Part shown: positions 5,924-48,951 of the stretch, piece by piece
Layout of the letters: every line of letters starts with the position of its first letter
Numbering within the stretch: the first letter of the stretch is position 1
NCBI RefSeq assembly: GCF_017357105.1
Contig: NZ_CP071596.1
Span: 2,852,001-2,916,000 of the forward strand
Source: Natronosalvus caseinilyticus
GTDB lineage: Archaea > Halobacteriota > Halobacteria > Halobacteriales > Natrialbaceae
Length of the DNA stretch: 64,000 bases
Direction: 5' to 3'
Notes under the pieces: model-generated
The model's database searches: none
What the model saw: the letters and a program-made list of their open reading frames with translations, nothing else
What the model was told of the DNA's origin: nothing
Made by a program: the position numbers and the translations under genes

Positions 5924-6003
5924 ATACCGGTAAAGTACACGAAATTGTGTAATGAGAGTTATTAAACTGAACACCAAGCAGCGTGGGAGTCGGTAATCAA
6001 AAA
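5924..6003 (+). repeat. Copy R0 of the 80-bp repeat found between toxin-antitoxin cassettes
   Basis: The sequence ACCGGTAAAGTACACGAAAT continues through ATTGTGTAATG, TTATTAAACTGAACA and GTCGGTAA. It matches the full-length copies at 22396, 23223 and 26218. This copy lies about 16 kb from the toxin-antitoxin array, at the 3' side of a HalOD1 gene. Confidence 0.65.
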
Positions 6004-13273: not shown

Positions 13274-13654
13274 TTATAGTTGGTTGAGGAACGGTTCCAG
13301 TTGAGTAAGTTTCTCTGTCGGTTCAACGATATTCCGGTTCGGGTCATAATTGACGACTCCTTTATCCTCCAATTTTGGAATGTGAACGTGATGTAATGAT
13401 ATATGGGTCTGTTTTACCTGTTGACTAGGGATTTCGGTTATGTCTGTGTTTTGCTCCTCTTCGACAACCTCGTTACGCAGGTCATTGAGCGTTAATGGCC
13501 GGTCATGCGTAAGAAGGAAATCAAGAACTGCACGACGACGTTGGTGGGAGAGCAATTCAAGGATTTCATCTACCGAAACCTCCTCTACTAGCATTATTCC
13601 CTCGCTCTGAGGTTTCCCATTCTCTCTGGTTTCGTCACTCCCCTCGTAGTCCAT
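13274..13654 (-). CDS. DUF7344 winged-helix regulator, duplicate of the 10536 gene
   Basis: The 126-residue protein shares most residues with the 10536-10907 product over the winged helix (VDEILELLSHQRRRAVLDFLLTHDRPLTLNDLRNEV, HISLHHVHIPKLEDKGVVNYDPNRN). The two upstream regions also match (GTATAAAGTTC, GATGTTTTGATTATGTG). The ATG at 13654 is chosen by that alignment. It is transcribed divergently from another DUF7344 gene at 13938. It probably binds similar operators to its twin; whether they heterodimerise is unknown. Confidence 0.8.
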   Translation of the reverse strand: MDYEGSDETRENGKPQSEGIMLVEEVSVDEILELLSHQRRRAVLDFLLTHDRPLTLNDLRNEVVEEEQNTDITEIPSQQVKQTHISLHHVHIPKLEDKGVVNYDPNRNIVEPTEKLTQLEPFLNQL

Positions 13655-13740
13655 GGACAAGACACAGACATCGATGCGTATAAAGTTCACTCCCAACTAC
13701 CCCGAAAAGATGTTTTGATTATGTGAGTGAATGCGCTTTT

Positions 13741-13814
13741 CGTTCAGTTCGCACACGTACTTACCGAATAGCGTGTCCGCGAATCCCGTCCTCGAGGTCA
13801 GTGGTCAGTACAGG
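13741..13814. repeat. Dispersed CAGTTCGCAC...CAGTACAGG repeat, copy b (expanded)
   Basis: CGTTCAGTTCGCACACGTAC and GTCAGTACAGGG are the two halves of the repeat. Here they are separated by about 43 bp of other sequence instead of about 5 bp. Confidence 0.5.
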
Positions 13815-13937
13815 GATGCGTGTATTACCAGCTTGTTCCGGTGTTACTATTCGAGCTTGCGTCTGTCCGAATGTGATTTTTCGAGTGAATGAGAGTGTTA
13901 TCCGTGAGCCCCCTTGTTTTTGCTATGAGATCCGTCA

Positions 13938-14270
13938 ATGAGCCAGGAAACCCAAACAGTCTCGACCGAAACAGCATTACGGGTAGTGGCAGATCCGTGT
14001 CGGCGATCAATCCTCTCCCAGTTGATCGACGGCGAGGAGACCGTGATTACGACGGATACCCTCGTTGATCGTATCAATCTCGAGAATCCACCTCCGGAGA
14101 CCAATACAACTCACGCCGACCCCCTTCTTATCGACGTACACCATACACATCTCCCAAAACTGGAGGACGCAAATTTGATCGAGTACGACCCGCGTACGAA
14201 AACGATTCGGTATACCTCGAACGAGCGCGTCGAGAGGGTGCTCCAATTCGTCACCGAAGAGCTGGAATAG
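13938..14270 (+). CDS. DUF7344-type winged-helix regulator
   Basis: The 110-residue protein contains ALRVVADPCRRSILSQLIDGEETVITTDTLVDRI and LLIDVHHTHLPKLEDANLIEYDPRTKTIRYT, matching the winged-helix fold of the DUF7344 family. It ends 50 bp before a TrmB-family gene in the same direction and could be co-transcribed with it. It diverges more from the 10536/13274 pair than they do from each other. Confidence 0.75.
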   Translation: MSQETQTVSTETALRVVADPCRRSILSQLIDGEETVITTDTLVDRINLENPPPETNTTHADPLLIDVHHTHLPKLEDANLIEYDPRTKTIRYTSNERVERVLQFVTEELE

Positions 14271-14320
14271 GGGACTTGAGACGGTAGGGGCTTTTTGTCC
14301 TCGAGAGGTCACTAGTTATC

Positions 14321-15112
14321 ATGGTGAGTTTTGAGGAGGAGCAGGCCGAAGCCGAGGCGCTGGAACGATTGCAAGACCTTGGGCTGTCCCAGTACGAGGC
14401 TCAAACACTCATCAATCTCCTACGCCTCGGGGCGGGAACCGCACAGGACGTCACGCAAATCGGCGGTGTCCCTCGAACTCGCGTGTACGAATCGGCAGAG
14501 CGACTCCACGAATTGGGATTCATCGACATCCAGCACACGACGCCACGAAAATTCACCGTGATATCTAATGAAACGATCATCCGACTGCTCGCCACCAAAC
14601 GCGAGAACACGATTACCGAACTCGCGGAGTGTCTCGAGGAGATCGGCCCCGCCCAGCCACAACGCGAACAGTTCGGCGTCTGGACGGTCACTGGACGGGA
14701 GGCGGTGGCATCCCGCATTGAGGAGTTCATCGCCGACGCTGACGAGCAGATCGTCTACATGACTATCGACGACTTGCTCACCGACGAACACCTCGACAGG
14801 CTTCAGGCTGCCGCGGAGCGTGGCGTCGAGATTCACTTGGCGGGGATTTCCGACGAAGTCCAGAAACGCATCCAGGAATCGGTACCGGAAGCCGAACTGT
14901 TCGAGACCCTCTGGGAATGGGAGGAGACGCCCGCTGGAAGCCTGCTGATCACGGACGAAGAGACGGCGCTCGTGAGCGCGCGCGTGGACGATATCTCCAC
15001 TGCCGAAGAAATCGAGGAGACGGCGATCTGGGGTGCCGGCGACCGAAACAGTCTCGTCGTCGTCCTTCGGGCGATTTTCACCTGGCGACTCAACACGAAC
15101 CAGCCGTCGTAA
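14321..15112 (+). CDS. TrmB-family transcriptional regulator
   Basis: The 263-residue protein has an N-terminal TrmB winged helix at about 12-85 (LERLQDLGLSQYEAQTLINLLRLG, GVPRTRVYESAERLHELGFIDIQ). A coiled-coil linker at about 86-112 follows, and then a C-terminal domain at about 118-260 (WTVTGREAVASRIEEFIADADEQIVYMTIDDLL...LAGISDEV) resembling the phospholipase-D-like effector part of the family. TrmB proteins generally regulate sugar uptake or central metabolism, but this one has no metabolic gene nearby. A HalOD1 gene follows 65 bp downstream. Confidence 0.82.
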   Translation: MVSFEEEQAEAEALERLQDLGLSQYEAQTLINLLRLGAGTAQDVTQIGGVPRTRVYESAERLHELGFIDIQHTTPRKFTVISNETIIRLLATKRENTITELAECLEEIGPAQPQREQFGVWTVTGREAVASRIEEFIADADEQIVYMTIDDLLTDEHLDRLQAAAERGVEIHLAGISDEVQKRIQESVPEAELFETLWEWEETPAGSLLITDEETALVSARVDDISTAEEIEETAIWGAGDRNSLVVVLRAIFTWRLNTNQPS

Positions 15113-15177
15113 GGCTGCCCAATAGTTCACTCAGAAAGTCACACTACACTCTTGTTTCTCGATCCCGTGCGAAGAGT

Positions 15178-15477
15178 ATGGTCGCAGAACGAGACGGTAC
15201 CGATCAATCTACCGATGCACGCGAGCCATTATTCCGCCGAACATACGATTGGTCAGATACAGCAGCGAGTATGGCCACGCTCACTGCCCTCGGAACACTC
15301 GAAAAGGTCGATCCGGTGGAACTTCCCGATGTTCTCGGTACCACACTGTACGACCACATCGATCCCGAAGCGCTAGACACGCTTGTCGCTGGCGAAGAAC
15401 GTGTTGACCTGTCGTTCCTGATCGACGACTATCGGGTGCGAATCGACGGTGAGGAGCTGACGATTACTCGCCAGTGA
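15178..15477 (+). CDS. Stand-alone HalOD1 domain protein
   Basis: The 99-residue protein has the HalOD1 layout: FRRTYDWSDTAASMATLTALGTLEKVDPVELPDVLGTTLYDHIDPEALDTL, then a beta hairpin with VDLSFLIDDYRVRIDGEELTITR. The ATG at 15178 starts it. It follows the TrmB gene on the same strand. It is probably an accessory signalling module; its biochemical role is unknown. Confidence 0.7.
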   Translation: MVAERDGTDQSTDAREPLFRRTYDWSDTAASMATLTALGTLEKVDPVELPDVLGTTLYDHIDPEALDTLVAGEERVDLSFLIDDYRVRIDGEELTITRQ

Positions 15478-15497
15478 GGTAGCTAACGATCTCCTCG

Positions 15498-15553
15498 CGA
15501 TCAGTTCGCACATGTAGTGAGCAATCCGTCACCTTTCGTTCGATCAGTACAGG
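15498..15553. repeat. Dispersed CAGTTCGCAC...CAGTACAGG repeat, copy c
   Basis: GCGATCAGTTCGCACATGTA is followed, after about 18 bp, by CGTTCGATCAGTACAGGG. It lies between convergent HalOD1 and receiver genes. Confidence 0.55.
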
Positions 15554-15595
15554 GTAACTACTCAGCACAGATCAGACATCCGCAAAAGGTGAACA

Positions 15596-16054
15596 TTACG
15601 GCGGAATTGGTGGGAGCCGTGCCTTCTCAACCCAGAACTGCTCAAAAGTATCTACAAGAGAGATGAACTTGGCAGGATCTGTTGGTTTTGTCAGATAGGC
15701 GTTAGCGCGGGCATCATAGCACCGCGCAACATCCTCTTCAGCCTCCGAACTCGTGAGCATAAGCACAGGCAGTGGTTTGAGCCGGGGATCATCCCGAATC
15801 ATTTCAAGAACCTCGCACCCATCTCGACCGGGCAGATTCAAATCCAGCAGGATGAGATCGGGAAGCTCGTTATCTGAAGACGTTCGTAAGAACTCCACAG
15901 CGTCGTCACCATTAGTGACTGTCTGTAGTGCTACCTTCTGTTTGGCCGACTTGAATGCCTCTCGAGTGAGCCGAATATCACCGAGATTATCTTCGACAAG
16001 CAAAATGTCGATCTCGTCCTCGGTAGAGGACTGGTGGACAGTAGTGTTGTGCAT
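15596..16054 (-). CDS. Single-domain response regulator (Rcp1-like)
   Basis: The 152-residue protein is one receiver domain: IDILLVEDNLGDIRLTREAF (acidic pair), phospho-acceptor Asp in PDLILLDLNLPGRDG, LMLTSSEAEEDV (Ser switch) and YLTKPTDP (Lys). No output domain is fused. The ATG at 16054 follows the HalOD1 gene (stop at 16071) by 16 bp, so the two are probably co-transcribed as separate receiver and output proteins. The ending FEQFWVEKARLP resembles that of the 21464-21925 receiver (LEQFWLSIMRLP). Confidence 0.85.
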   Translation of the reverse strand: MHNTTVHQSSTEDEIDILLVEDNLGDIRLTREAFKSAKQKVALQTVTNGDDAVEFLRTSSDNELPDLILLDLNLPGRDGCEVLEMIRDDPRLKPLPVLMLTSSEAEEDVARCYDARANAYLTKPTDPAKFISLVDTFEQFWVEKARLPPIPP

Positions 16055-16070
16055 GGGTGATGGCCGAGAA

Positions 16071-16343
16071 TCAACTCTTGATACGCCCATGACCGTGATA
16101 CTGCTTCTCGACGGCCACATACCCGTCAGAGAACACGCTAACCTCGCAACCGTTGTAGTTGAATGTAACTTTTCCAACGGTCAGGGCATCGTCAAAAATG
16201 CGGTCTAAGGCCTCGGGATCAATGGCATCGTACAATGGGGGTGTGAGTTCTACAGGCCGAACACCTTCTGCTTCAGCAACTGCTTCAACTACAGTCTGAC
16301 TAACACACTTCTCGTCGGGTATTTCGGTCTGGATTTTGTTCAC
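16071..16343 (-). CDS. Stand-alone HalOD1 domain protein, upstream of a receiver gene
   Basis: The 90-residue protein (GTG start at 16343) shows the HalOD1 pattern: VVEAVAEAEGVRPVELTPPLYDAIDPEALDRIF, VGKVTFNYNGCEVSVFSDGYVAVE. It precedes the receiver gene at 15596-16054 by 16 bp. In haloarchaea, receiver and HalOD1 are often one polypeptide; here they are split. Direct interaction between the two products is a reasonable inference. Confidence 0.7.
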   Translation of the reverse strand: MNKIQTEIPDEKCVSQTVVEAVAEAEGVRPVELTPPLYDAIDPEALDRIFDDALTVGKVTFNYNGCEVSVFSDGYVAVEKQYHGHGRIKS

Positions 16344-16422
16344 AACCCCTGTAGACCATCCACCTCCTTAAACATATAGCTTGATTGATATTTTCCAGAA
16401 GGGCTTAAATAGGCTATGGAAA

Positions 16423-16911
16423 TCAGCCAGTGTCGTCCTCGTTCGTAAATTTCTTTCCGAAGTGATTGTAAGGGAACGCTCGAATCCGCTTCAACAAATC
16501 TATGCGCTCGATATCGACGCCCAATTCGCCCATCTCACCGATGCTCTTCTCAATTTCTTGCTTGTTCTGCCCGACCAACTCAATCGAGAGGTTTGCGTTA
16601 TTCGTTAGTAACTCACTGACACTCACCACACCAGGGACGCTTACGAGGTCGTCAACGATCTCCTCTTGGTCATCAATTGGAATCGTCGCCATGACGAGCA
16701 AGTGATGGCCCATCCCCGTTTGCTCGTAGTCAACTGTTGGGTGATATCCCGTGATAACGCCGTTTTCTTCGAGTTTGGTGATGCGATTGGCGACTGTGCT
16801 GGACGAGACGCCGACCTTTTCCCCGATGGCGTTCGTCGTGTTGTTCCGGGCATCTTCCTGCAAGAGATACAGGATGCCTTTGTCAACCGAGTCAAGTTCC
16901 TCCGAAGCCAT
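16423..16911 (-). CDS. Lrp/AsnC-family transcriptional regulator
   Basis: The 162-residue protein has an AsnC HTH at about 5-55 (DSVDKGILYLLQEDARNNTTNAIGEKVGVSSSTVANRITKLEENGVI) and a RAM-type effector domain at about 65-145 (GHHLLVMATIPIDDQEEIVDDLVSVPGVVSVSELL). It is a standard-length family member, probably an octameric or dimeric feast/famine-type regulator whose ligand is unknown. The ATG at 16911 is chosen. The first third is duplicated as a decayed fragment at 10315-10497. It lies between a HalOD1-receiver pair and a zinc-ribbon gene. Confidence 0.88.
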   Translation of the reverse strand: MASEELDSVDKGILYLLQEDARNNTTNAIGEKVGVSSSTVANRITKLEENGVITGYHPTVDYEQTGMGHHLLVMATIPIDDQEEIVDDLVSVPGVVSVSELLTNNANLSIELVGQNKQEIEKSIGEMGELGVDIERIDLLKRIRAFPYNHFGKKFTNEDDTG

Positions 16912-16980
16912 GATCAAGGGGCGTAATGGAGTCGTCACTAAAGTAGGTTCCCTTGATTTGTCCAGTACAGGCCGAGTAGT

Positions 16981-22395: not shown

Positions 22396-22475
22396 GAAAC
22401 CGGTAAAGTACACACAATCGTGTTACGTGAGTTATTGAACTGAACAAGGTCGAGCAGCGCGAAAATAGGTAACAG
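22396..22475 (+). repeat. Toxin-antitoxin array repeat R1
   Basis: This full-length copy runs from GAAACCGGTAAAGTACAC through the symmetric ACACACAATCGTGT core and GAACTGAACAAGGTCGAGCA to ATAGGTAACAG. It ends 16 bp short of the vapC1 stop codon. Copies R2 (23223) and R5 (26218) are full length; R3 (24345) and R4 (25421) are partial. Confidence 0.75.
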
Positions 22476-22491
22476 CCAACACAATCGTGCC

Positions 22492-22884
22492 TTAGTACGA
22501 CCGTACTTCGAGGCCGCCGATACGGCCAAAGTGCTTGGTGTTTCTCGTGATAACCGGTTCATCGTTGAGAAGCGCAGTCGCAGCGATAATACAGTCTTCT
22601 CGCTCAATCCGTTCGCCACGGTTGATCAGCTCACCGGAGAGTTTTCCGGCTTTTCGCATCACGGTGTGGTCGGCGCTCACGACGTGTTTTGTTTCTAGTA
22701 TCTCGAGAATGCGTTCTCGCTTCGTCTCCGGTGTTTGAGACCGAGCAACACCCTCGTAGAGTTCCAAAACCGTCACGGAGGACACTTTCTGTGGTTGCGC
22801 TTCTTTTTCGACGATATCGAGAAGTCGTTTTGCGTTTTCATCGCCCCGAAGTAAGTCGATAATGAACGAGGTGTCCTGAATCAT
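22492..22884 (-). CDS. vapC: VapC-type PIN-domain toxin 1
   Basis: The 130-residue protein begins MIQDTSFIIDLLRG and has the PIN acidic set D4, E41 (VLELYEG), D97 (EREDCIIAATAL) and N115 in TRNTKHF. This is the VapC layout of Mg-dependent ribonucleases. It overlaps the upstream antitoxin gene by 4 bp (ATGA). It is about 88% identical to the 25488-25880 toxin. VapC toxins cleave RNA, often initiator tRNA, and are neutralised by the cognate VapB; the exact target here is unknown. Confidence 0.88.
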   Translation of the reverse strand: MIQDTSFIIDLLRGDENAKRLLDIVEKEAQPQKVSSVTVLELYEGVARSQTPETKRERILEILETKHVVSADHTVMRKAGKLSGELINRGERIEREDCIIAATALLNDEPVITRNTKHFGRIGGLEVRSY

Positions 22885-23141
22885 TCCGACGTCTCGTCGT
22901 CTACGGCTTCATCTAACTCTACTGTGAGGCGGTCACTCCGCTCTCTGGACTTCGTTCGTCCCTCTTCGATAGCGGCCTCGAGGTCTGCCGCCTCGTCCTC
23001 GGAGAGGATTCCCGTAACCTCGTTCCACGACCGTTCTCCAGCGAGGCGCTTGACGGTTTCACTGAAGCTTTCACCCTCTTTTTTTCGGGATTTCAGCCGC
23101 TCATAGGCTTCCTCGTCGAGTGAAATCGTTTTCGTTGCCAT
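22881..23141 (-). CDS. vapB: VapB-type antitoxin 1
   Basis: The 86-residue protein has an N-terminal DNA-binding part (MATKTISLDEEAYERLKSRKKEGESFSETVKRL, an RHH/DUF217-type antitoxin pattern) and an acidic C-terminal tail that should wrap the toxin. The ATG at 23141 is chosen because it matches the twin at 26137; upstream sequence is promoter. An inverted repeat, AGTAC-ACA-GTACT at 23145-23157, lies between the TATA-like TTTTTAAG (minus strand, 23166-23173) and the ATG, a good autoregulatory operator. Confidence 0.85.
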   Translation of the reverse strand: MATKTISLDEEAYERLKSRKKEGESFSETVKRLAGERSWNEVTGILSEDEAADLEAAIEEGRTKSRERSDRLTVELDEAVDDETSE

Positions 23142-23144
23142 TGC

Positions 23145-23157
23145 AGTACACAGTACT
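23145..23157. promoter_or_regulatory. Probable VapBC1 operator
   Basis: AGTACACAGTACT is an inverted repeat 4 bp upstream of the vapB1 ATG and 9 bp downstream of a TATA-like box. The second VapBC unit has the related GTAGT-n-ACTAC at the same place (26139-26156). Confidence 0.55.
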
Positions 23158-23222
23158 ACATGCATGCTTAAAAATACTGGTTCGAAGCCCCTCCTTTCAG
23201 TAGAAAAATGAGCCAACGTAAC

Positions 23223-23306
23223 GAAACCGGCAAAATACACGAAACAGTGTAACGTGAATTATCGACCTGAACAAGGTCGAGCAGCGAGAGAACCGGTAAG
23301 GTTCAA
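23223..23306 (+). repeat. Toxin-antitoxin array repeat R2
   Basis: Full-length copy: GAAACCGGCAAAATACACG, ACACGAAACAGTGT core, CGACCTGAACAAGGTCGAGC, then GAACCGGTAAG. It separates VapBC1 from the next cassette and has the same orientation as R1 and R5. Confidence 0.75.
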
Positions 23307-23375
23307 AACATACGTTATAGGCGTTCAATCCTCCAAATAGGAATATAAAATTCGGTTCTGCGGGATTCTTCGCGT

Positions 23376-23484
23376 TTACTCGGAGTCGATGAGCACCCGG
23401 AAGACTGGATACTCGTCCGGTCGAACACGTTCCAACAACACCGCTCGGGTACCCTGCTCAGTCTCGATGAGAGGAATACCGTGA
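23376..23484 (-). pseudogene. C-terminal remnant of an unidentified gene
   Basis: The minus frame encodes LHGIPLIETEQGTRAVLLERVRPDEYPVFRVLIDSE followed by a stop at 23376. It has good haloarchaeal composition but an in-frame TAG immediately upstream and no start. It is probably the tail of a gene lost during cassette exchange. I do not recognise the family. Confidence 0.4.
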
Positions 23485-23556
23485 AGCTAGCGGTCAGTTC
23501 TTGCTGCTGTGTCTCCATCCAAAGACACAAGATTCTGTGTCTACATAGTTTTCTGT

Positions 23557-23787
23557 ATGCCCAGTATCACCGTCAATGTCGACGACGATCTCAAAGATCG
23601 GATGGAGAGACATCCGGAAATCAACTGGAGCGAGGTCACCCGCCAGGCGATCCAAGAGAAAATCGAGACACTCGAAGTGATGGACGAGCTCACATCCGGA
23701 AGCGAACTCACCGAGAGCGACGTCGCAGAAATAGCCAACAAGGTCAACGAGAGCGCACGCGACCGCGTCGAAGAGGATTTGGAGTAG
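23557..23787 (+). CDS. Ribbon-helix-helix antitoxin of the PIN-toxin pair
   Basis: The 76-residue protein begins MPSITVNVDDDLKDRMERHPEINWSEVTRQAIQEKIETLE, a ribbon-helix-helix (CopG/MetJ-like) DNA-binding motif. An acidic tail follows (SELTESDVAEIANKVNESARDRVEEDLE) that should bind a PIN toxin. The ATG at 23557 is chosen because the RHH strand starts there. The toxin gene starts 10 bp after its stop. It is on the opposite strand from the VapBC units. Confidence 0.85.
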   Translation: MPSITVNVDDDLKDRMERHPEINWSEVTRQAIQEKIETLEVMDELTSGSELTESDVAEIANKVNESARDRVEEDLE

Positions 23788-23796
23788 TCCCGACGA

Positions 23797-24213
23797 ATGA
23801 AGTTGGTTATCGACGCCAATGTCGTCATCTCAGCGCTCATCGCCGACTCGAAAACCCGCGAACTCATCGTTACGCTCGAACCAGATCTCGTGACACCCGA
23901 GTTCGTCCACGACGAAATCGAGAACTACACGGAGTTGATCGTCGATAAATCTGGGATGCACCCGGATCGAGTCGCGCAGTTCATTGACCTCCTGTTTCAG
24001 TATATTGAGGTCGTCCCCGCCAGCAAGTTCTATCCCTATATCAAGGAGGCCAACGCGGCGATCGGTGAGACTGATCCCGACGATGTGCTGTACGTCGCGT
24101 GTGCCCTCGCCAGTGACGCGGACATCTGGAGCGACGACACCGACTTCGATGAGCAAGATATCGTCGAGACCCATTCGACGACCGACGTGATCGACTCGTT
24201 CGACACGCGCTAA
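23797..24213 (+). CDS. PIN-domain toxin (PIN_3/COG1569-like)
   Basis: The 138-residue protein starts MKLVIDANVVISALIADSKTRELI. PIN acidic residues are D6, E40 (HDEIENY), D95/D96 (ETDPDDVLYVACAL) and D113/D114 (DIWSDDTDF). This is a different PIN branch from the two VapC proteins, closer to the predicted nucleases paired with RHH proteins. It is expected to be a Mg-dependent RNase held inactive by the 23557-23787 antitoxin. The repeat R3 follows 131 bp downstream. Confidence 0.85.
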   Translation: MKLVIDANVVISALIADSKTRELIVTLEPDLVTPEFVHDEIENYTELIVDKSGMHPDRVAQFIDLLFQYIEVVPASKFYPYIKEANAAIGETDPDDVLYVACALASDADIWSDDTDFDEQDIVETHSTTDVIDSFDTR

Positions 24214-24344
24214 CCGACCGATACTAACAATTATAGGCCTCGGCAGTTTCGTTTATATATGTCGCCTAGTGAAGGACGCTAAACCCTATATTCGACAGGA
24301 TGATTTTGTGATCAGACGTTGTTTTCGCGAGAATCCATGGTGGA

Positions 24345-24390
24345 TTTCATCGAACTGAACAAAGTAGAACAGCGCGAGTCTAGGTAGCAC
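24345..24390 (+). repeat. Toxin-antitoxin array repeat R3 (partial)
   Basis: TTTCATCGAACTGAACAAAG through AGAACAGCGCGAGTCTAGGT matches the right half of R1 and R2. The left half with the ACAC-n-GTGT core is missing. Confidence 0.65.
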
Positions 24391-24436
24391 ATAACGCTCT
24401 TAGCTATACGTTCGATACCGCGTTATTTATCAAGCG

Positions 24437-24577
24437 ATGCTCGCGGTATTCTCCGCCCGAGCAAGTCGAGTGATTACTGAACGCGAACTCGTGAAAGATG
24501 CCCTTCGTGTGACCAGCGGAAGCGTCCTCATCGGATTCGGAGTTAAACTGGCGCTCGAACGAAGAACTCCGGCTTAG
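24437..24577 (+). CDS. Possible 46-residue small protein
   Basis: The frame encodes MLAVFSARASRVITERELVKDALRVTSGSVLIGFGVKLALERRTPA with a clean ATG and TAG. A helical head is followed by a hydrophobic stretch (SVLIGFGVKLAL) and a basic end, so it could be a small membrane-associated protein or a remnant. There is no recognisable partner. It sits between R3 and the MazF-like operon. Confidence 0.35.
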   Translation: MLAVFSARASRVITERELVKDALRVTSGSVLIGFGVKLALERRTPA

Positions 24578-24750
24578 GTTTACGAGAGAATACTCACGTT
24601 GCCAACTGCCGTTCCGGACGCTATGAAGAATGCAGTAACGTAGATGGAATCTGTAACGTCAGTCCGAGATTTGAACAAGGTTTCCCAAAGGCCATCACAC
24701 GAAGACCGATAGCGCCGGTCGCAGGTGTAGTTGACCCGGAAATCGGTGAC

Positions 24751-25104
24751 TCAATCCAGCCCGAGACTCAGTTTCAGTGCTTCGTCCACCTCGGACATGG
24801 TCGGCTCGCTCAGACTCCCGATAACCGAGTGAATCCGCTTTTCGATAGAGACGACGCGAATCTGGTCGAGGCGAACTGAGGAGTCCTTCTCGAACGGTGA
24901 CCCATCCTCTTCGACCAGCACTTCGAACGGGTAGCCTCGATGCGTACCTGTCGCTAGAGCAACGATGGTCGTACTGGAGTTGCGATTTCCAATATCGTTT
25001 TGCACGACCACCGCAGGCCGAGTCTTTTTCATCTCGTGGCCCTCGGCAGGGTCGAGACGAACGACTACGACGTCACCGCGCCGAACCTCGGTCTTCTCGC
25101 TCAT
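24751..25104 (-). CDS. mazF: MazF/PemK-family toxin
   Basis: The 117-residue protein has the PemK-like fold signature: VRRGDVVVVRLDPAEGHEMKKTRPAVVVQND, then STTIVALATGT and SSVRLDQIRVVSIEKRI. Conserved residues include R9, G10, D11 and the KTRP turn at 27-30. Family members are sequence-specific endoribonucleases. Its start overlaps the upstream antitoxin stop by 4 bp (ATGA). The gene uses typical haloarchaeal codons. Confidence 0.88.
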   Translation of the reverse strand: MSEKTEVRRGDVVVVRLDPAEGHEMKKTRPAVVVQNDIGNRNSSTTIVALATGTHRGYPFEVLVEEDGSPFEKDSSVRLDQIRVVSIEKRIHSVIGSLSEPTMSEVDEALKLSLGLD

Positions 25105-25340
25105 TCATCGAGTCCGTTCCATGCCTCGTCAGATGCTCCCTTCCACTCCTCAGCGAGATGGTCGGCGCTCTCGGATGCCTCGCGGTACGCGGCAGCTAAT
25201 TCGTCCTCGTCAGGTCGGTCAGATTCGACTTCGACGACGGCGACAGTCACGCGCTTGTTCGCGTACTCCGTCCCGAGGTAGATTCGACCTCGGTCGTCAG
25301 TCTCGTTGGTTTGTAGGTCGTGAGCATCTACTTTCGTCAT
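25101..25340 (-). CDS. Antitoxin partner of the MazF-like toxin
   Basis: The 79-residue protein has an N-terminal beta-rich part (MTKVDAHDLQTNETDDRGRIYLGTEYANKRVTVAVVEVE) compatible with an AbrB/MazE swapped-hairpin domain. Its acidic helical tail (DEDELAAAYREASESADHLAEEWKGASDEAW) is suited to toxin binding. The ATG at 25340 is preferred to one 9 bp upstream. Identification rests mainly on the overlap with the MazF-like gene. Confidence 0.8.
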   Translation of the reverse strand: MTKVDAHDLQTNETDDRGRIYLGTEYANKRVTVAVVEVESDRPDEDELAAAYREASESADHLAEEWKGASDEAWNGLDE

Positions 25341-25420
25341 GGTACGCACTACGGGTCACTTCTGGATAAGCCTTACCCACTATTACCCACAGTGGCTATC
25401 CTCTGTGAGCGTACCAAGGA

Positions 25421-25470
25421 TTTCACCTGGCTGAATAAGGTTGAGCAAAGGGGAAACCGGTAGCAGTTAC
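25421..25470 (+). repeat. Toxin-antitoxin array repeat R4 (partial)
   Basis: CACCTGGCTGAATAAGGTTG and GAAACCGGTAGCAGTTAC match the right half of R1 and R2. It ends 18 bp before the vapC2 stop, nearly the same spacing as R1 to vapC1. Confidence 0.65.
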
Positions 25471-25487
25471 TCTATCGATAATTTCCA

Positions 25488-25880
25488 CTAGTACGACTGT
25501 ACCTCCAGGTCATCGACACGGTTGAAATGTTTGGTATTTCTCGTGATAATCGGCTCATCGTTCAGGAGGGCAGTTGCTGCGATAATACAATCCTCTCGCT
25601 CGATCCGCCTGCCGCCGTTAATTAGTTCACCGGAGAGTTTCCCGGCTTTTCGCATGACGGCCTGGTCGGCACTTACCACGTGCTTCGTTTCCAGTACGTC
25701 AAGGATACGTTCTCGTTTCGTTTCTGGCGCTTGTGAACGGGCGACACCCTCGTAGAGTTCGAGCACCGTTACGGAGGACACTTTCTGTGGTCGTGATTCC
25801 TTCTCAACGATGTCGAGAATCCGTTTTGCGTTTTCGTCACCACGTAACAGGTCGATGATAAACGATGTATCCTGAATCAT
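25488..25880 (-). CDS. vapC: VapC-type PIN-domain toxin 2
   Basis: The 130-residue protein differs from VapC1 (22492-22884) at about 16 positions and keeps the PIN residues D4, E41, D97 and N115. It overlaps its antitoxin gene by 4 bp. Differences cluster near residues 20-32, 58-75 and 88-92 and at the C-terminus (120-128), where toxin-antitoxin contacts are likely. That may help keep the two systems separate. Confidence 0.88.
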   Translation of the reverse strand: MIQDTSFIIDLLRGDENAKRILDIVEKESRPQKVSSVTVLELYEGVARSQAPETKRERILDVLETKHVVSADQAVMRKAGKLSGELINGGRRIEREDCIIAATALLNDEPIITRNTKHFNRVDDLEVQSY

Positions 25881-26137
25881 TCCGCCTTCTCGTTACCAAC
25901 GGCTTCGTCTAGCTCCGCTGTGAGGCGGTTACTCCGCTCTTTGGACCGAGTGCGCCCCTCCTGGATAGCGCTTTCGAGGTCCGTCGCCTCCTCCTCGGAA
26001 AGGATACCTGCGACTTCGTTCCACGACCGTTCTCCCGCGAGGCGTTTGACGGTTTCACTGAAACTCTCCCCTTCTTTCTTTCGAGCCTTCAACCGCTCGT
26101 AGGCTTCTTCGTCGAGTGAAATCGTTTTTGTCGCCAT
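25877..26137 (-). CDS. vapB: VapB-type antitoxin 2
   Basis: The 86-residue protein is the twin of VapB1: MATKTISLDEEAYERLKARKKEGESFSETVKRLAGERSWNEVAGILSEEEATDLESAIQEG. The ATG at 26137 is set by that alignment. Upstream are the inverted repeat GTAGT-n-ACTAC and a TTTTTAAG promoter box, as in the first unit. Confidence 0.85.
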   Translation of the reverse strand: MATKTISLDEEAYERLKARKKEGESFSETVKRLAGERSWNEVAGILSEEEATDLESAIQEGRTRSKERSNRLTAELDEAVGNEKAE

Positions 26138-26138
26138 T

Positions 26139-26156
26139 GTAGTACACAGCACTACA
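26139..26156. promoter_or_regulatory. Probable VapBC2 operator
   Basis: TGTAGTACACAGCACTACA contains GTAGT and ACTAC as inverted arms. It starts 2 bp upstream of the vapB2 ATG and lies downstream of a TATA-like box at about 26161-26170, the same layout as VapBC1. Confidence 0.5.
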
Positions 26157-26217
26157 TGCACACTTAAAAAGTATGGCGTCTAGACCATGCTCGTTACGAA
26201 CGGAGAACGGCGGACTG

Positions 26218-26297
26218 GAAAAGCGGCAAAGTACACAGAACTGTGTAACGTAAATTATCGACCTAAACAGCGTCGAGCAGCAAGAAAGTCGATAGCC
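26218..26297 (+). repeat. Toxin-antitoxin array repeat R5
   Basis: Full-length copy: GCGGCAAAGTACACAGAACT, ACACAGAACTGTGT core, CGACCTAAACAGCGTCGAGC, then GTCGATAGCC. It closes the array on the right. The 26298-26428 sequence beyond it contains no gene. Confidence 0.7.
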
Positions 26298-26428
26298 GGA
26301 TTCGGCTGTTTCAGGGCATCTATTGCTGACCGGGTAGTCAACTTCCGGCTTGTGTTTACCTCGTAGTCGGATTAACGTAATATCATCCATCCATCATTAA
26401 GGGGAAGTTCGGGCCCAGCTTGCTCTGG

Positions 26429-27415
26429 TTACGACGCATCCGGCGTTCGTGACGCAGAGACACGTGCGCGACCGATGGCAGTGATTACTACCGCAGCACT
26501 CGCTGCAATCGCCGCACCAAAAATGAGAACTATACTTGCCGTGTGAAGTGGTTCGACGCCGAGTAGCGCACTCAGCTTTTTCAGAGCTACAGCCAGGCTT
26601 CCTACGAGCAGTACTGCTGCGAAGTATTCCTTGATGACGTCCTCGTCGACGAGCGTCGATGCTCCTGCACCGATGCGAGCACCGAGCGCACTTCCCACGA
26701 GTAGCAAACTAACAACGGGGAGGGAAACCGCGCCGGTTCGTGCGTAGACAAACGCGCCGAACGCACCGGACACGGTGATTTGAAGGATGTCAGTTCCGAC
26801 GGCGATTCCAGCAGGAACGCCGAGTCCATATAGCATCGCGGGCAGTAGCAGGAATCCTCCACCAACACCGAGGAATCCAGAGAGCGTTCCGACGATCCCA
26901 CCGATTGCCAGGATAACCCAGACTGACACCCTGACGTCACCGGTCAACGACACCATCGGAGGACAGTCAAAAGTTTGTACACGATTAGTGAGATTATCTC
27001 CGAGATATTCGTCCCTCTCCTGACGTGCATCACGCAGGGTGAACAGTCCGACGAGGGCGAGAAGGGTGATGTACGCGACGCCGATGACGAGGCCAGCCGA
27101 CCCGAACTCTTCCAGTACCACGACTGCTCGTCTCCCGACTTCGATCCCGGCGGTCATAGCCACCGTCAGCAACGCGACGAGTTTGTAGTCGATCTGACCG
27201 TGGGTGCGATGCCTGAGCGCGGCCACGACGCTCGTCCCGAACACGAAGGCGAGTCCACTTCCGACTGCCACTTTTGCCGGATAGCCAAGGACGAGCAGCG
27301 CTGGCGTGACGAGGAACGACCCACCCATCCCGAAGAACCCGAAGAGAACACCGACCAGCAGACCAAATCCGACGAAGACGGCAATCGATACGAGGCTTAA
27401 TCCGAGGAATTCCAT
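26429..27415 (-). CDS. TauE/SafE-family anion exporter (DUF81)
   Basis: The 328-residue membrane protein has two homologous halves, each beginning with a glycine-rich motif: FGFFGMGGSFLVTPALLVLGYP at about 25-46 and GFLGVGGGFLLLPAMLYGLGVP at about 179-200. This is diagnostic of the TauE/SafE family. About eight hydrophobic helices are present. The family moves sulfite, sulfoacetate or other organic sulfonates and anions; the substrate is not set by sequence. The start overlaps the preceding small membrane-protein gene by 19 bp, so they are one operon. Confidence 0.88.
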   Translation of the reverse strand: MEFLGLSLVSIAVFVGFGLLVGVLFGFFGMGGSFLVTPALLVLGYPAKVAVGSGLAFVFGTSVVAALRHRTHGQIDYKLVALLTVAMTAGIEVGRRAVVVLEEFGSAGLVIGVAYITLLALVGLFTLRDARQERDEYLGDNLTNRVQTFDCPPMVSLTGDVRVSVWVILAIGGIVGTLSGFLGVGGGFLLLPAMLYGLGVPAGIAVGTDILQITVSGAFGAFVYARTGAVSLPVVSLLLVGSALGARIGAGASTLVDEDVIKEYFAAVLLVGSLAVALKKLSALLGVEPLHTASIVLIFGAAIAASAAVVITAIGRARVSASRTPDAS

Positions 27416-37462: not shown

Positions 37463-38545
37463 ATGGTCGACAATCAGCTTCGAACGGTGAGCGGTCTGGC
37501 AACGCGACGGAAGGTCATCGCGGCGACTGGCGCCGTGGGGACGGGTCTGATTGCCGGATGTGCAGAGAACGAAGCGAGCGGCGACGGGAACAGTGGTAAC
37601 GGCGGCAACGCCAATGGAAACGGAAATGGCAATGGCAACACCGAAAACACCGTCGAGGGAACCGTCCGTATCTCCGGAAGCAGCACCGTCTTCCCCGTCT
37701 CGGAAGCCGCTGGTGAGGAGTTCTCCACCATGCACGGCGGGTTCGAGTACGAACTCTCGAGCGACGGGAGCACCGGCGGGATAGAGAACTTCTTCATCCC
37801 CGGTGAGAGCGCCGTCACTGGCTCGAGTCGGCCGATACTCGAGGAAGAAATCGAGGGCTGTCAGGACACCGGCTTTCAGCCGATCGAGTTTCAGTGCGCG
37901 GGCGACGCGCTGACGGCGATCGTCAATCCGGAGAACGACTGGCTCGACTGCGTCGACTACGAGACGATGCAGGAAGTATGGCTCCCGGACGACGCGCCCG
38001 AGACGTGGGCCGACATCGACCCCGAGTGGCCCGACGAGGAAATCGAGCTCTTCGGCCCCGCCACGACGTCGGGGACGTACGACTACTGGACGGGCGAAGT
38101 GCTCGACGACTTCCGGAGCATCCGCGAGGACTTCCAGGGAACCGAGGAGGACGATCTCATCGCGGAGGGCGTCGCCGGGAATCCGTACGCACACGGCTAT
38201 CTTCCCTATGCGTACTACGACAACAATCCCGAGGGCATCAAGGCGCTCGAGTTCGACGGCGGCGACGGGTGTACGGCGCCGAGCCTCGAGGCCGCCTCCG
38301 ATGGATCATACCCGCTCGCACGCCCGATCTTCTGGTACGTCAACCAGAACAAGCTCCAGGAGGACGAGGCCGTACAGGCGTTCGTCGAGTTCGCTATCGA
38401 GCTGTCGGGCGACTTCGAGATCGTCTCCGAGGAGATCGGCTACGTCGCCATGAACGACGACGAGGTGCAGGAGAACCTCGAGCGCCTCCAGGCCGCGATC
38501 GATGGCGAGATCAGCGACGAAGACGCGATCCCGTCGGCAAACTGA
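37463..38545 (+). CDS. pstS: Phosphate-binding lipoprotein PstS1
   Basis: The 360-residue protein has a twin-arginine-like signal (TRRKVIAATGAVGTGLIAGC) with lipobox Cys33, then an Asn/Gly-rich linker (about 42-62). The mature domain has [20 protein letters not shown] and FGPATTSGTYDYW, the phosphate-contact loops of PstS. It is anchored outside the membrane and delivers phosphate to PstC1-PstA1. A second, shorter PstS lies at 41601. Confidence 0.92.
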   Translation: MVDNQLRTVSGLATRRKVIAATGAVGTGLIAGCAENEASGDGNSGNGGNANGNGNGNGNTENTVEGTVRISGSSTVFPVSEAAGEEFSTMHGGFEYELSSDGSTGGIENFFIPGESAVTGSSRPILEEEIEGCQDTGFQPIEFQCAGDALTAIVNPENDWLDCVDYETMQEVWLPDDAPETWADIDPEWPDEEIELFGPATTSGTYDYWTGEVLDDFRSIREDFQGTEEDDLIAEGVAGNPYAHGYLPYAYYDNNPEGIKALEFDGGDGCTAPSLEAASDGSYPLARPIFWYVNQNKLQEDEAVQAFVEFAIELSGDFEIVSEEIGYVAMNDDEVQENLERLQAAIDGEISDEDAIPSAN

Positions 38546-38581
38546 CCCTCGACGGTCGTTCAGTACTCCCATGGCACTAAC

Positions 38582-39574
38582 ATGCATTCGACGAGGGACC
38601 CACCGATGAGCGGCGACGTTTCGCAACGCGAGTGGCAACGCCCGGAAGCGAACGTTCGCCGGGAGCGGATCTACGAGTATGCGCTTCTGGGCTGTGCGAC
38701 GCTGACCGTCGTGATCACGGTGGGGATTCTCTACACGCTCTTTTCGGACGCGCTGTACTTCTTCGAAGAGTACGCTGGCTTGCTCGACGGCTCGATCGCG
38801 AACGCCCTCTCGGAGTTCGTCACCGGGAAGAACTGGCGGCCGACGATTCGGCCGTACGCCTACGGCCTGTTGCCGCTGCTGAGCGGCACGATCGTCGTCA
38901 CCGTCGCTGCCGCCGCCATCGCGCTTCCGTGCGGCCTCGGCGCGGCGATCTACCTGAGCGAGTACGCCCGCCCGACGACGAGAGCGTATCTGAAGCCAGC
39001 GCTCGAGGTGCTGGCGGGCGTTCCGACGATCGTTTACGGCTACTTCGCGCTCGCGTACGTCACGCCGTTCCTCGACCGATTCCTGCCGCTATCGACGTTC
39101 AACGCGCTGTCGGCCTCGATCATGATGGGGATCATGATCGTCCCGATGATCTCCTCGATCAGCGAGGATGCCCTGCGTGCGGTTCCCGATTCACTTCGGG
39201 AGGCGGGGTATGGGCTGGGCGCGACGAAATTCGACGTGTCGGTTCGCGTCATCGTGCCCGCGGCGTTTTCGGGGATCATCTCGTCGTTCATCCTCGCGCT
39301 CTCGCGAGCCATCGGCGAAACCATGATCGTCACCGTCGCGGCCGGGCAGAACCCGAAGATGCTGATCGTCGATCCGACCAGACTCGACGAGAACCTGTAC
39401 GACTCGATCCAGACGATCACCTCGGCGATGGTACAGGCCGCAGGATCGGACACGGCGGGCGGAACGCCGGTGTTCTGGTCGATGTTCGCCCTCGGCCTCG
39501 CGCTGTTCGTCGTCACCTTCACGATGAATCTGATCGCCGACGCCGTCCAGCGTCGCTACAGGGAGGTGTACTAG
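38582..39574 (+). CDS. pstC: Phosphate ABC permease PstC1
   Basis: The 330-residue membrane protein has about six helices. The binding-protein-dependent transport signature is [45 protein letters not shown]. An internal ATG at 38606 (MSGDVSQREW) would give 322 residues and is equally likely. It follows pstS1 and ends immediately before pstA1, with the ribosome-binding-like GGGAGGTG inside its last codons. Confidence 0.9.
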   Translation: MHSTRDPPMSGDVSQREWQRPEANVRRERIYEYALLGCATLTVVITVGILYTLFSDALYFFEEYAGLLDGSIANALSEFVTGKNWRPTIRPYAYGLLPLLSGTIVVTVAAAAIALPCGLGAAIYLSEYARPTTRAYLKPALEVLAGVPTIVYGYFALAYVTPFLDRFLPLSTFNALSASIMMGIMIVPMISSISEDALRAVPDSLREAGYGLGATKFDVSVRVIVPAAFSGIISSFILALSRAIGETMIVTVAAGQNPKMLIVDPTRLDENLYDSIQTITSAMVQAAGSDTAGGTPVFWSMFALGLALFVVTFTMNLIADAVQRRYREVY

Positions 39575-41170
39575 ATGGGAATTCGCACCAACGAACGCGA
39601 GTGGGTCGGCGGCTCGAGCACCCTGGCGAGAATCCGCGGCGGAGCGTTCAAGTACGTCTGTCTCAGCACCGCGCTGTTCGGCATCGTCACGCTCTTCGTG
39701 CTACTCGCGTACGTCGCGATCGACGCAGTCGAGTTGCGCGAGGCCGACCCTGCCTGGTTCGCCATCGTCGGAGCGACCCTCGTCTTCCCAATCGCGCTGT
39801 TCGGCTGGCGGGTTCGGGGAACCCCGGCGGCCGACGTCGCGAAGACGAGCGTCGGCGGCGTGTTGCTCGCGGCGGGCCTCGGCTGCTTCCTGACCGTTGC
39901 GTTCACGGTCGTCACCCCCTACGTGTGGGCGGCGTACGTTCTGCTGGCGGTCGCGCCCACTGTCGCGGCAGCGCGGTACGGCGACCGTTTCGAGCGACTC
40001 GACGGCTCCGGTCCGCTCGTGATGGCGACCGTCGCGCTGGGCGTGATCGTCGCGACCGCCCTGCTAGGGCCGATCACCGCCATCCTCGGACTGGCGAAGC
40101 CGTGGATCCTGTACCTGCTCACGGCGACCGTTCCCGTCGCCGGTGCGCTCCTCTGGTGGGCGAGGACTCGAGACGACCATGCGGCCGGTGTCGCCGCCGC
40201 ATTGACCGTCGCGGCGACCGTCGGACTCGGCCTCCTCGTCGAGGTCGGAGCGCTCGAGAGCGCCGGCGCGCCGATCGCCTTCCTGCTCGGGTTCGTCGGT
40301 CCGGCGACCGTCGTTCTCGCGGACGGCTACCGTCGCGGCCCCGCCGCCAGGATCGGTCTGCTCGCGATCCCGATTATCCTGGGCGGCGCGGTCGCGGCCG
40401 TCGTCGCCTCCTTGCTGCTGGGAGTCCCGATGCCCAACCCCTGGCTTCGGCCGGAGTTCTTCCAGCAGGGGCCGTCCCGAACCCCCGAAAAAGCTGGCCT
40501 CTACCCGCCGATCGTCGGGTCGATATTCATGCTGATCGTGATGATCGTCGCCGTGTTCCCCCTCGGCGTCGGTGCGGCGATCTATCTGGAGGAGTACGCC
40601 ACGGACAACTGGCTCACTCGCCTCATTCGCATCAATCTCACCAACCTGGCGGGCGTGCCATCGGTCGTCTACGGACTCCTCGGTCTGGCGATCATCGCTC
40701 GTCACTTCGGCTTCGGACGGGGAACGGTCATTACGGCGGGGTTAACCGTGGGGCTACTCGTCTTGCCGATCGTCATCATTTCGACCCAGGAGGCGATTCG
40801 GTCGGTGCCGAACTCGGTCCGACAGGCGTCCTACGGGATGGGTGCGAGTCGATGGCAGACGACGCGAGAGGTCGTCCTCCCGGAGGCGTTCCCCGGCATC
40901 CTGACCGGAACGATTCTGGCGCTCGGCCGAGCAATCGGGGAGACCGCGCCGCTCATCATGATCGGGGCCGCGACGTCGGTCTCGAGCGCCCCGGATTCGC
41001 TGTTCGGGACCGTCACCGCGATGCCGCTCCAGATCTTCTCCTGGCGGAGTTACTTCGACCCAGACTTCCGGTACGGCGTCGTGGCGGCGGGCGTCATCAC
41101 GCTCCTCGTTATCCTTCTCGGCATGAACGCGGCCGCGATCATCCTGCGAAACCGCCTCGAGAAACGGTGA
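39575..41170 (+). CDS. pstA: Phosphate ABC permease PstA1 with long N-terminal membrane extension
   Basis: The 531-residue protein is far longer than typical PstA (about 280-300). The C-terminal 280 residues are PstA-like ([83 protein letters not shown]). The first 240 or so residues contain about eight hydrophobic segments in Ala/Val/Gly-rich sequence between the first helix and the permease core. This extension is absent from PstA2 (299 residues). Its role is unknown. The start follows the pstC1 stop directly, with SD GGAGGTG. Confidence 0.88.
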   Translation: MGIRTNEREWVGGSSTLARIRGGAFKYVCLSTALFGIVTLFVLLAYVAIDAVELREADPAWFAIVGATLVFPIALFGWRVRGTPAADVAKTSVGGVLLAAGLGCFLTVAFTVVTPYVWAAYVLLAVAPTVAAARYGDRFERLDGSGPLVMATVALGVIVATALLGPITAILGLAKPWILYLLTATVPVAGALLWWARTRDDHAAGVAAALTVAATVGLGLLVEVGALESAGAPIAFLLGFVGPATVVLADGYRRGPAARIGLLAIPIILGGAVAAVVASLLLGVPMPNPWLRPEFFQQGPSRTPEKAGLYPPIVGSIFMLIVMIVAVFPLGVGAAIYLEEYATDNWLTRLIRINLTNLAGVPSVVYGLLGLAIIARHFGFGRGTVITAGLTVGLLVLPIVIISTQEAIRSVPNSVRQASYGMGASRWQTTREVVLPEAFPGILTGTILALGRAIGETAPLIMIGAATSVSSAPDSLFGTVTAMPLQIFSWRSYFDPDFRYGVVAAGVITLLVILLGMNAAAIILRNRLEKR

Positions 41171-41600: not shown

Positions 41601-42575
41601 ATGTCGAGAGACGCCTCTGGCGTGCCGTCGACCGGTCTCGGGAGACGGGAACTGCTCGCCGCGACGGGGGTCGCGGCGACCGCCGGGCTGGCCGGTTGTA
41701 CCGACGTACTGGCTGAAGAGGGGAAACAGGTACCGATCGCCGGAAGCAGCACGGTCTTTCCCGTGACCGAAGCCGTCGCCGCGGCGTACTTCGAGGAACG
41801 ACCGAACGTCAACGTCTCCATCAGTCAGACGGGGACCGGCGGCGGTTTCTCGAACTTCTTCTGTCCGGGCATGACCGCGATCAACAACGCAAGTCGCGAG
41901 GTCGCGGACATCGAACGCGAACAGTGTAGCGAGAACGGAATCGAACCGATCGAGTTCACCATCGCGAGGGACGCGCTGACTGTCGTCGTCAACCCCGACG
42001 CCGACTGGGTTGACTGCCTCACCGTCGAGGAACTCCGGGAGATCTGGCGCACCGACGGCGCTCAGCGCTGGAGCGACGTGCGAGACGACTGGCCCGACGA
42101 GGAGTTCGAACTGTACGGGGCCGACACCACCTCCGGCACGTTCGACTACTTCGTCGAGGCGATCATCGGCGAGGACGCGAACCACCGAAGCGACTACCAC
42201 GCGACCGAGAAGGATCGGACCATCGTCCAGGGCGTTCGCGGTTCCAAACACGCCATCGGCTACTTCGGGTTCGCCTACTACGTCGAAAACCCAGACCAGA
42301 TCAAGGCAGTCGGCATCGACGACGGCGACGGCTGCGTCGAACCGTCGATCGAGACGGCCATGAACGACGAGTACACCCCGCTGTCGCGACCGTTGTTCAT
42401 CTACGCCGCCGACCAGGCGCTCGTCGAGCCCGAGATTCAGGACTTCCTCCGCTTTTACATCGAGCAGTCGGCGACCGACCTCGTCGAGGAGGTCGGTTAC
42501 GTCCCCGTCACCGAAGAAGTGCGTGACGAGAACCTCGAGAAACTCGAGACGGCCATCGACGAGGTGACCGCATGA
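41601..42575 (+). CDS. pstS: Phosphate-binding lipoprotein PstS2
   Basis: The 324-residue protein has a Tat-like signal ([20 protein letters not shown], lipobox Cys33) and the PstS phosphate loops [20 protein letters not shown] and [16 protein letters not shown]. It lacks the Asn/Gly linker of PstS1. The ATG at 41601 is preferred to the overlapping GTG at 41598. Its stop overlaps the pstC2 start (ATGA). Confidence 0.92.
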
Positions 42576-43501
42576 GCGCGATGGACCTCTCCCACGACGG
42601 GAATCGGACGGCCCGTGGCGTTTTCTTCAAATACCTCTTCACGCTGTGTGCGCTGGTGTCGATCCTGACGACGGTCGCCATCGTCCTGACGCTGTTGCTC
42701 GACGCGGTGGACTTCTTCGCCGCCGTCTCGCCGATCGACTTCCTCTTTGGCACCCGCTGGAGTCCGACGAACGAGCCCGTCGCCTTCGGCGTGTTGCCGC
42801 TGATCACGGGGACGCTCACCATCACGTTCGGGGCTGCCGCCATCGCCCTGCCGATCGGCCTGCTGACGGCCATCTACCTGAGCGAGTACGCCTCGAGTCG
42901 TCGACGGGCCTACCTCAAGCCGGCGCTCGAGGTGCTGGCAGGCGTGCCGACGGTCGTCTACGGGTACTTCGCGCTCGTGTACGTGACGCCGGCGCTGGAC
43001 GCGATTCCGTTCGTGGAGCTGTCGACGTTCAACGCACTGTCGGCCTCGATCATGGTCGGCATCATGATCATCCCGATGGTCTCCTCGATCAGCGAGGACG
43101 CGATGAGCGCGGTGCCGGACTCGCTCCGGCAGGCCAGTTACGGGCTAGGGGCGACGAAGTTCACAGTCTCCACGTCCGTCGTCGTCCCCGCGGCGCTGTC
43201 GGGCATCTTCTCGTCATTCATCCTCGCGCTCTCGCGAGCGATCGGCGAAACCATGATCGTCGCCATCGCGGCGGGGCAGACGCCCAAATTGATCGACCTG
43301 ACCGATCCGGCCGCACTGTTCCTCGAGTCGGTCCAGACGATGACCGCGGCGATGGTCCAGATCGGGACGAACGACGTCGTCGGCCAGTCGGTAGCCTACA
43401 AGAGCCTGTTCGCGGTCGGCCTGACGCTGTTCGTGATCACCTTCGTGATGAACCTCGTGAGCGAATTTATCGCCTCGCGCTACCGGGAGGTGTACCAGTG
43501 A
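42572..43501 (+). CDS. pstC: Phosphate ABC permease PstC2
   Basis: The 309-residue protein has six helices and the permease signature [54 protein letters not shown]. It is homologous to PstC1 throughout. It overlaps pstS2 by 4 bp and pstA2 by 1 bp, so translation is coupled. Confidence 0.92.
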
Positions 43502-48842: not shown

Positions 48843-48951
48843 CTGCCTTCCTCGAGGTTGCCCTGACTACCTTCCTCGAGGCCACACGGGACTGACTGCC
48901 TTCCTCGAGGTTGCCCTGACTACCTTCCTCGAGGCCACACGGGACTGACTG
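48825..48951. repeat. 53-bp tandem repeat, 2.4 copies
   Basis: Units at 48825-48877 and 48878-48930 are identical, and 48931-48951 repeats the first 21 bp. Each unit begins GAGGCCACACGGGACTGACT and includes CCTTCCTCGAGGTTGCC. The first copy contains the last codons and stop of the DUF488 gene; the later copies are non-coding tail. This is a recent tandem duplication. Confidence 0.9.

Follow-up and report, generated by a model that had tools for sequence, protein, structure and literature searches.

Integrons, and the clusters of attC sites without an integrase that are called CALINs, have been reported also in Archaea (PMC9668308), and the accessible main text of that report contains neither the word Halobacter nor the word haloarchaea. 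For archaeal integrated elements, the available part of PMC6563490 states that 14 of the 68 mapped elements used protein-coding genes, and that the targets differ. Strand-biased circularizing elements (SEs), GInts, RITs and Tn554 carry two or three catalytic recombinases, according to the part of PMC10214605 at hand. The gene aroQ is not described as an integration site in the accessible portions of PMC8371274, PMC9668308, PMC7923331, PMC11078007, PMC10214605, PMC6563490, PMC10266531 and PMC4158269, and we found no description of an order-wide cassette site at this gene in the open-access literature, so far as its texts were available.

The window that we analysed is a stretch of 64,000 nucleotides (G000:C1:2852001-2916000, G000 being the window's own two-contig haloarchaeal genome). 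A first-pass annotation had described a sharp change near 26.4 kb from AT-richer accessory DNA to GC-rich, core-like DNA, coinciding with a repeat (R5), as if an element had integrated or a plasmid had fused there. GC content, codon usage and a change-point analysis agree on this change. GC is 0.529 at positions 1-26256 as compared to 0.636 at 26257-64000, and GC3, taken over called genes of 100 aa or more, is 0.60 in 51 island genes as compared to 0.82 in 30 genes to the right. The maximum-likelihood change point has an LLR of 378, whereas 200 shuffles of 500-bp blocks reach 59.5 at most. The statistical step lies at 27009, about 0.75 kb to the right of the junction rather than on it, because positions 26257-27414 have a GC of 0.571. 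Of the gene content reported for the two sides, we found toxin-antitoxin (TA) genes and the parA locus on the left, the latter as a ParA-family ATPase gene (511-1359, reverse strand, Pfam AAA_31), and Cdc48 and phosphate-type ABC transporter proteins on the right. The transporter genes form two tandem sets (37463-41170 and 41622-45272) that are 70-84% alike in parts (repeat families D4, D6, D14, D17 and D20), and the chromosomal part of the window also holds a 53-bp tandem repeat in 2.5 perfect copies (48820-48951).

An empty site near 26.3 kb, which the annotation had suggested looking for in relatives, is present in G004, a relative that is about 91% identical. Both flanks match between the two genomes with 86-94% identity per block; the left alignment stops inside the 3' end of a chorismate mutase gene (aroQ), the right one begins at window position 26257, and the two meet at G004 C1 ~2635253-2635275, where aroQ runs straight into the DNA that lies to the right of window 26257. 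The first gene of the chromosomal right flank, a TauE/SafE permease gene (26429-27415, reverse strand), also stands at this empty site. The aroQ product is a weak but clear chorismate mutase by NCBIfam, with a best score of 69.7 bits below a cut-off of 77, and the same gene is annotated as 'chorismate mutase', after 'shikimate kinase', in Haloterrigena alkaliphila.

The island inserted into the 3' end of aroQ is 65,099 bp long, counted between its two end cores (G000:C1:2813164-2878262). Its left end lies in aroQ at window coordinate -38836 (G000:C1:2813164), 39 kb beyond the window's left edge, and its right 26.3 kb occupy positions 1-26262 (no strand assigned), as delimited by GC, change point and the G004 empty site. 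The best single low-GC block, from -38900 to 27050, covers nearly the same stretch; GC is 0.527 in the island and 0.635 in its flanks. Direct repeats derived from the target stand at both ends, namely the aroQ core at -38836 and, at 26263-26296 on the forward strand, an attachment-like, decayed copy of the last 34 nt of aroQ, which is placed by the G004 alignment and weakly matched by an HMM (E 0.3). Synteny with G004 puts the junction at this repeat copy, as the annotation had held; R5 corresponds, as far as can be told, to our families D11/D12 (copy 26216-26311), and the junction core ends 2 bp to the left of the interval given there (26298-26428). The aroQ product ends in IELNKIEQNYHIRDENDTQWDDN before the stop in the window's genome and in IELNKVEQRESR before the stop in G004, so that the final codons of aroQ come from the element that entered. 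G017, which belongs to another genus, has a replacement tail almost identical to that of the window's genome.

Empty site, end repeats and an integrase at one end are thus all present, which upholds the integrated element among the two possibilities that the annotation had offered. To judge from the sequence comparisons, the boundary is very probably the right end of a composite 65.1-kb island that would have entered by site-specific recombination at the 3' end of aroQ. An integrated element in the end of a coding gene is an already known archaeal kind. Like the elements of PMC6563490, as far as the accessible text describes them, the island was inserted site-specifically, replaced the gene end with its stop codon and carries TA and restriction cargo; unlike them, it belongs to a system in which one gene is the site across an order, and arrays of small TA cassettes are not mentioned in that part of the source. 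A tRNA as insertion target was rejected, since the window has none.

At the left island end, 110 bp past the aroQ stop and convergent with aroQ, lies the gene of a 373-aa tyrosine recombinase (PF00589, E 1e-10), followed by ORFs of 174 and 150 aa in a three-gene operon. Among the homologous integrase loci (L071-L079) the 174-aa partner is conserved in 9 of 9 and the 150-aa ORF in 8 of 9. The partner has no Pfam match and a weak similarity to an integrase profile, and PF00589 is matched by one of the three operon proteins. With Tn554, SEs, GInts and RITs, as the available part of PMC10214605 presents them, the island shares a multi-gene recombinase operon, a protein without a catalytic motif and a fixed target; in contrast to them, with their two or more catalytic tyrosine recombinases in one operon, it shows one catalytic recombinase, a partner and another small protein. 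Elsewhere in the island, at window -11561 to -10923, lies a further gene for a tyrosine recombinase, of shorter length (212 aa, PF00589). Other cargo includes Orc1/Cdc6, GmrSD, type IIG restriction-like, HKD/Snf2 helicase-like and NucS-like proteins. A viral origin was rejected, as IMG/VR held no exact match to the core and a phage collection no match to the integrase; with the TA genes as query, the one phage matched was ChaoS9 (one virus, two records), whose PIN pair is 68% identical.

Two other genera harbor integrase islands at the aroQ site, of 71.7 kb in G079 and 32.5 kb in G013, with the same integrase operon adjoining aroQ, and each of these islands closes with a core whose arm is of a cassette type. 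The G079 island, which was compared without its middle 30 kb, is 98% identical to the window's genome over 11.3 kb (window ~-1009 to 10296) and 95-96% identical over 3.7 kb (13274 to 16937). An identity of 98% across genera points to recent horizontal transfer. Restriction, NucS-like and helicase genes at window -27455 to -18015 are 77-89% identical to those of the G013 aroQ island, and this block looks like a shared defence module. Toxin genes of four families were more alike, by over 5 points, than the aroQ genes of the same genomes in 173 of 325, 110 of 209, 85 of 152 and 33 of 77 pairs.

Besides the copies at its two ends, the island carries five internal cores (starting at 5967, 22440, 23267, 24355 and 25431), all on the forward strand. 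The last five cores, the right-end one included, delimit four TA cassettes of 0.8-1.1 kb (22440-26262; no strand assigned to the cassettes themselves), in the order VapBC, RHH/PIN_2, PemIK and VapBC. Cassette 1 (22440-23266) begins with the core 22440-22473 (nhmmer E 3.1e-8) and holds vapC (22492-22884) and vapB (22881-23141) on the reverse strand, with products that match PIN and VAPB_antitox. Cassette 2 (23267-24354; core 23267-23300, E 6.6e-7) has its genes on the forward strand, a putative RHH antitoxin gene without Pfam match (23557-23787) and a PIN_2 toxin gene (23797-24213). Cassette 3 (24355-25430; core 24355-24388, E 2e-8) encodes a PemK/MazF-like toxin (24751-25104) and a putative antitoxin without Pfam match (25101-25340), both on the reverse strand. 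Cassette 4 (25431-26262; core 25431-25464, E 0.0021) has vapC (25488-25880) and vapB (25877-26137) as reverse-strand ORFs and is 80% identical to cassette 1 over 300 nt. Comparison of arms places the left arm of the right-end core at 26218-26262 on the forward strand, of the type TACAC-n6-GTGTAACG. The core at 5967-5996 is a variant that lacks 3 nt in frame but keeps its arm intact. It was noticed when the sequence was read and lies outside the HMM hits at E<=1; the same variant (LNTKQR..SR and stop) is present in the G079 island at C1 ~1997600.

This arrangement is widespread in the family. The gene aroQ is present in 117 of 119 genomes, and we sampled 115 further aroQ loci, most with about 16 kb of downstream DNA. 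The last 48 nt of aroQ have same-strand copies downstream at 52 of 114 loci (E<=1e-4; one locus was too short). Four other segments of the gene, used as controls, gave 1, 0, 0 and 4 such loci, a segment beyond the stop codon gave 3, and the reverse complement gave 0. A model built on the gene end finds a downstream copy in 71 of 115 loci at E<=0.01 and in 74 at E<=0.1, with no inverted downstream copy among the 115 loci at E<=1, and 41 of the 115 loci have no segment between cores. The remaining loci, together with the window's genome (four segments), yield 126 inter-core segments, commonly 0.7-1.2 kb long and 81 of them up to 1200 nt, with sharp length peaks at 752-754, 784, 826-834 and 1088 nt. 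The window's fourth cassette, whose end core reaches only E 0.3, is for that reason outside this count. One of five TA families is present in 88 of the 126 segments, including the window's 61-kb first segment, which counts as TA because of a vapC copy inside it, and in 68 of the 81 short ones. The 38 segments with none of the five families carry, as read by eye from the translations, metabolic-looking genes (e.g., HisH-like, cupin, methyltransferases, nickel transporter-like), several of which recur. Arrays of two or more cassettes number 37; the TA families stand in varying order in them, and one family was found at positions 1 to 4. Among 74 pairs of loci that share the start of their flank, we use the 7 whose common flank is 1.2 kb or longer, which differ by whole cassettes, since many of the 74 'flanks' are another cassette whose end core was missed; cassette number is therefore undercounted. 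The greater decay expected of distal cores shows only when weak hits are included (p 0.007) and is not robust, with p 0.08 and 0.36 at stricter cut-offs.

The cores themselves bear the mark of a coding sequence. Their entropy at codon positions 1, 2 and 3 is 0.42, 0.32 and 1.05 bits (permutation p 1.5e-4), and 95 of 113 read ten codons plus stop (LNKVEQRENR). The 41 copies beyond the first of each array have the same codon pattern (0.37, 0.38 and 0.95 bits). This codon-type conservation indicates that cores have been selected as the end of aroQ. A pair of loci shows how they are exchanged. L164 has no cassette, and the core at the end of its aroQ is CTGAACAAGGTGGAGCAGCGAGAGAATCGGTAAC, while at L131, whose right flank is 96% identical over 1.4 kb, the CTGAACAAGGTGGAGCAGCGAGAGAATCGGTAAC core stands unchanged at the right end of a two-cassette array and the core in aroQ is a different one. 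The first difference between the two aroQ cores is at core position 12, which places the exchange within CTGAACAAGGT; with a crossover there, incoming DNA supplies the remaining aroQ codons and the stop, and the old core moves to the far right end. The arms upstream of the cores fall into few types, each common to different cassettes, and the same types are found at the right ends of the G079 and G013 islands.

By the tests made, the aroQ arrays work like a TA-rich integron but are not an integron. With integrons and CALINs, as far as PMC9668308 was accessible, they share serial cassettes, here in varying order, a single site orientation, a fixed insertion point, TA-rich cargo and the frequent lack of an integrase gene; unlike these, the aroQ system has as its site a coding end, with a 34-nt core and a one-sided arm, and neither IntI nor a consistent hairpin of the attC kind.

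Of the 119 family genomes, 15 have integrases closely like the window genome's (E<1e-45), and an intact one of this type stands near aroQ at 2 of 115 loci (G079 and G013) and in the window's genome; further traces beside aroQ come from L104, which keeps a remnant, and from L099, with a weak match (E 7e-5). A search for integrases with an HxxRH motif among the 115 loci gave convincing results at L175 and L180 only. Intact integrases near aroQ being rare, most arrays have no enzyme at hand, and since arrays are much commoner than such integrases, the cassettes either depend on a recombinase acting in trans, or have a different one, or for the most part do not move. We propose that the operon of tyrosine recombinase, 174-aa partner and 150-aa protein would catalyse insertion of the large islands. 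As to which recombinase moves the small cassettes, we infer that those without an integrase use the same attachment site in trans. New cassettes would enter next to aroQ, so that arrays would grow outwards from the gene, as in an integron, and the TA cargo may resist loss of the array. Halobacteriales would then have a cassette-capture system of their own, independent of integrons, with aroQ as entry site, cassettes that bring codon-conserved ends, and islands that supply a recombinase in trans for TA and metabolic cassettes lacking one, a proposal to which we give about equal weight for and against.

The most serious alternative is that the small TA cassettes are not mobile units at all, and instead are what internal deletion left of larger, integrase-carrying islands inserted at aroQ. 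The remnant in L104 would fit, as it is the C-terminal part of an integrase in a 3.1-kb segment beside a PIN pair; so would G017 (locus L177), where an aroQ tail like the island-supplied one has no integrase within 16 kb, and the identity of the cores and arms of TA-type cassettes with those of the islands. However, the sharp length peaks and the recurrence of the same unit at different array positions in many genomes are unlike random deletion, and the seven locus pairs with long shared flanks differ by whole cassettes. We thus think this explanation doubtful, if worth keeping in mind. The other possibility offered in the first-pass annotation, fusion of a plasmid to the chromosome through homologous recombination or an IS and no site-specific system, draws on the plasmid-like Orc1/Cdc6 and ParA genes of the island; it fares worse, because the junction lies exactly at a site-specific repeat, the aroQ core, that recurs at the same gene in many genomes and across genera, and the integrase operon adjoins the junction in the same layout as in G079 and G013, and we regard it as highly improbable. 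We give hardly any credence to a reading of the repeats as regulatory or terminator elements common to TA operons rather than attachment sites: in leftward operons the arm lies upstream of the first gene and could hold a promoter or operator, but the same types of core and arm occur in cassettes whose genes point rightward, and the core corresponds to coding sequence at the 3' end of aroQ, shows codon-type conservation and is exchanged with that of aroQ. A true integron, with an IntI integrase and attC sites, would agree with a TA-rich cassette array beside a fixed insertion point and is almost certainly not what we see, since nothing in the genome exceeds the cut-off of TIGR02249, the model for integron integrases (highest score 37 of 265 bits), the island integrase is weakly XerA/XerC-like and has no listed match to that model, and the five own sites fold into different structures (z +0.91, -3.43, -0.94, -2.67 and -1.58), two of them better than most shuffles but not alike.

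If the arrays are indeed the product of cassette capture at aroQ, cassette capture with TA-rich arrays has evolved in archaea, at least once, separately from integrons, and is anchored there on a biosynthetic gene that looks essential. Each insertion would rewrite the end of aroQ, and the gene would thereby both record and select the history of insertions. The site would then also offer an easy starting point in the search for new TA, restriction and metabolic cargo of archaea, and its recombinase would be a testable one for halophile genetics.

The range of the core extends beyond the family. A degenerate core pattern is found in at least 93 of 119 family genomes and, across the class, in at least 240 of 391, the reversed pattern giving 0 in both cases. 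Of 290 genomes from outside the family, at least 31 match the core pattern more than once. Twenty of the latter were taken, which give no frequency because they had been picked for several matches; aroQ was in the stretch in 19 of them, a downstream copy was present in all 19 (E<=0.1), and 11 had one of the five TA families. Among the named aroQ loci, 38 of 80 have a copy within 10 kb. Cores beside TA operons away from aroQ were seen, by eye and among the matches listed, only at the G079 island end and, twice, at the start of one G097 contig. The TA region matches 26 plasmid records, of which several come from genera with aroQ on a secondary replicon and others match by a PIN or PemK pair only. 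In several Natrialbaceae (e.g., L280), aroQ and its array are found not on the chromosome but on records of 160-250 kb that are called plasmids.
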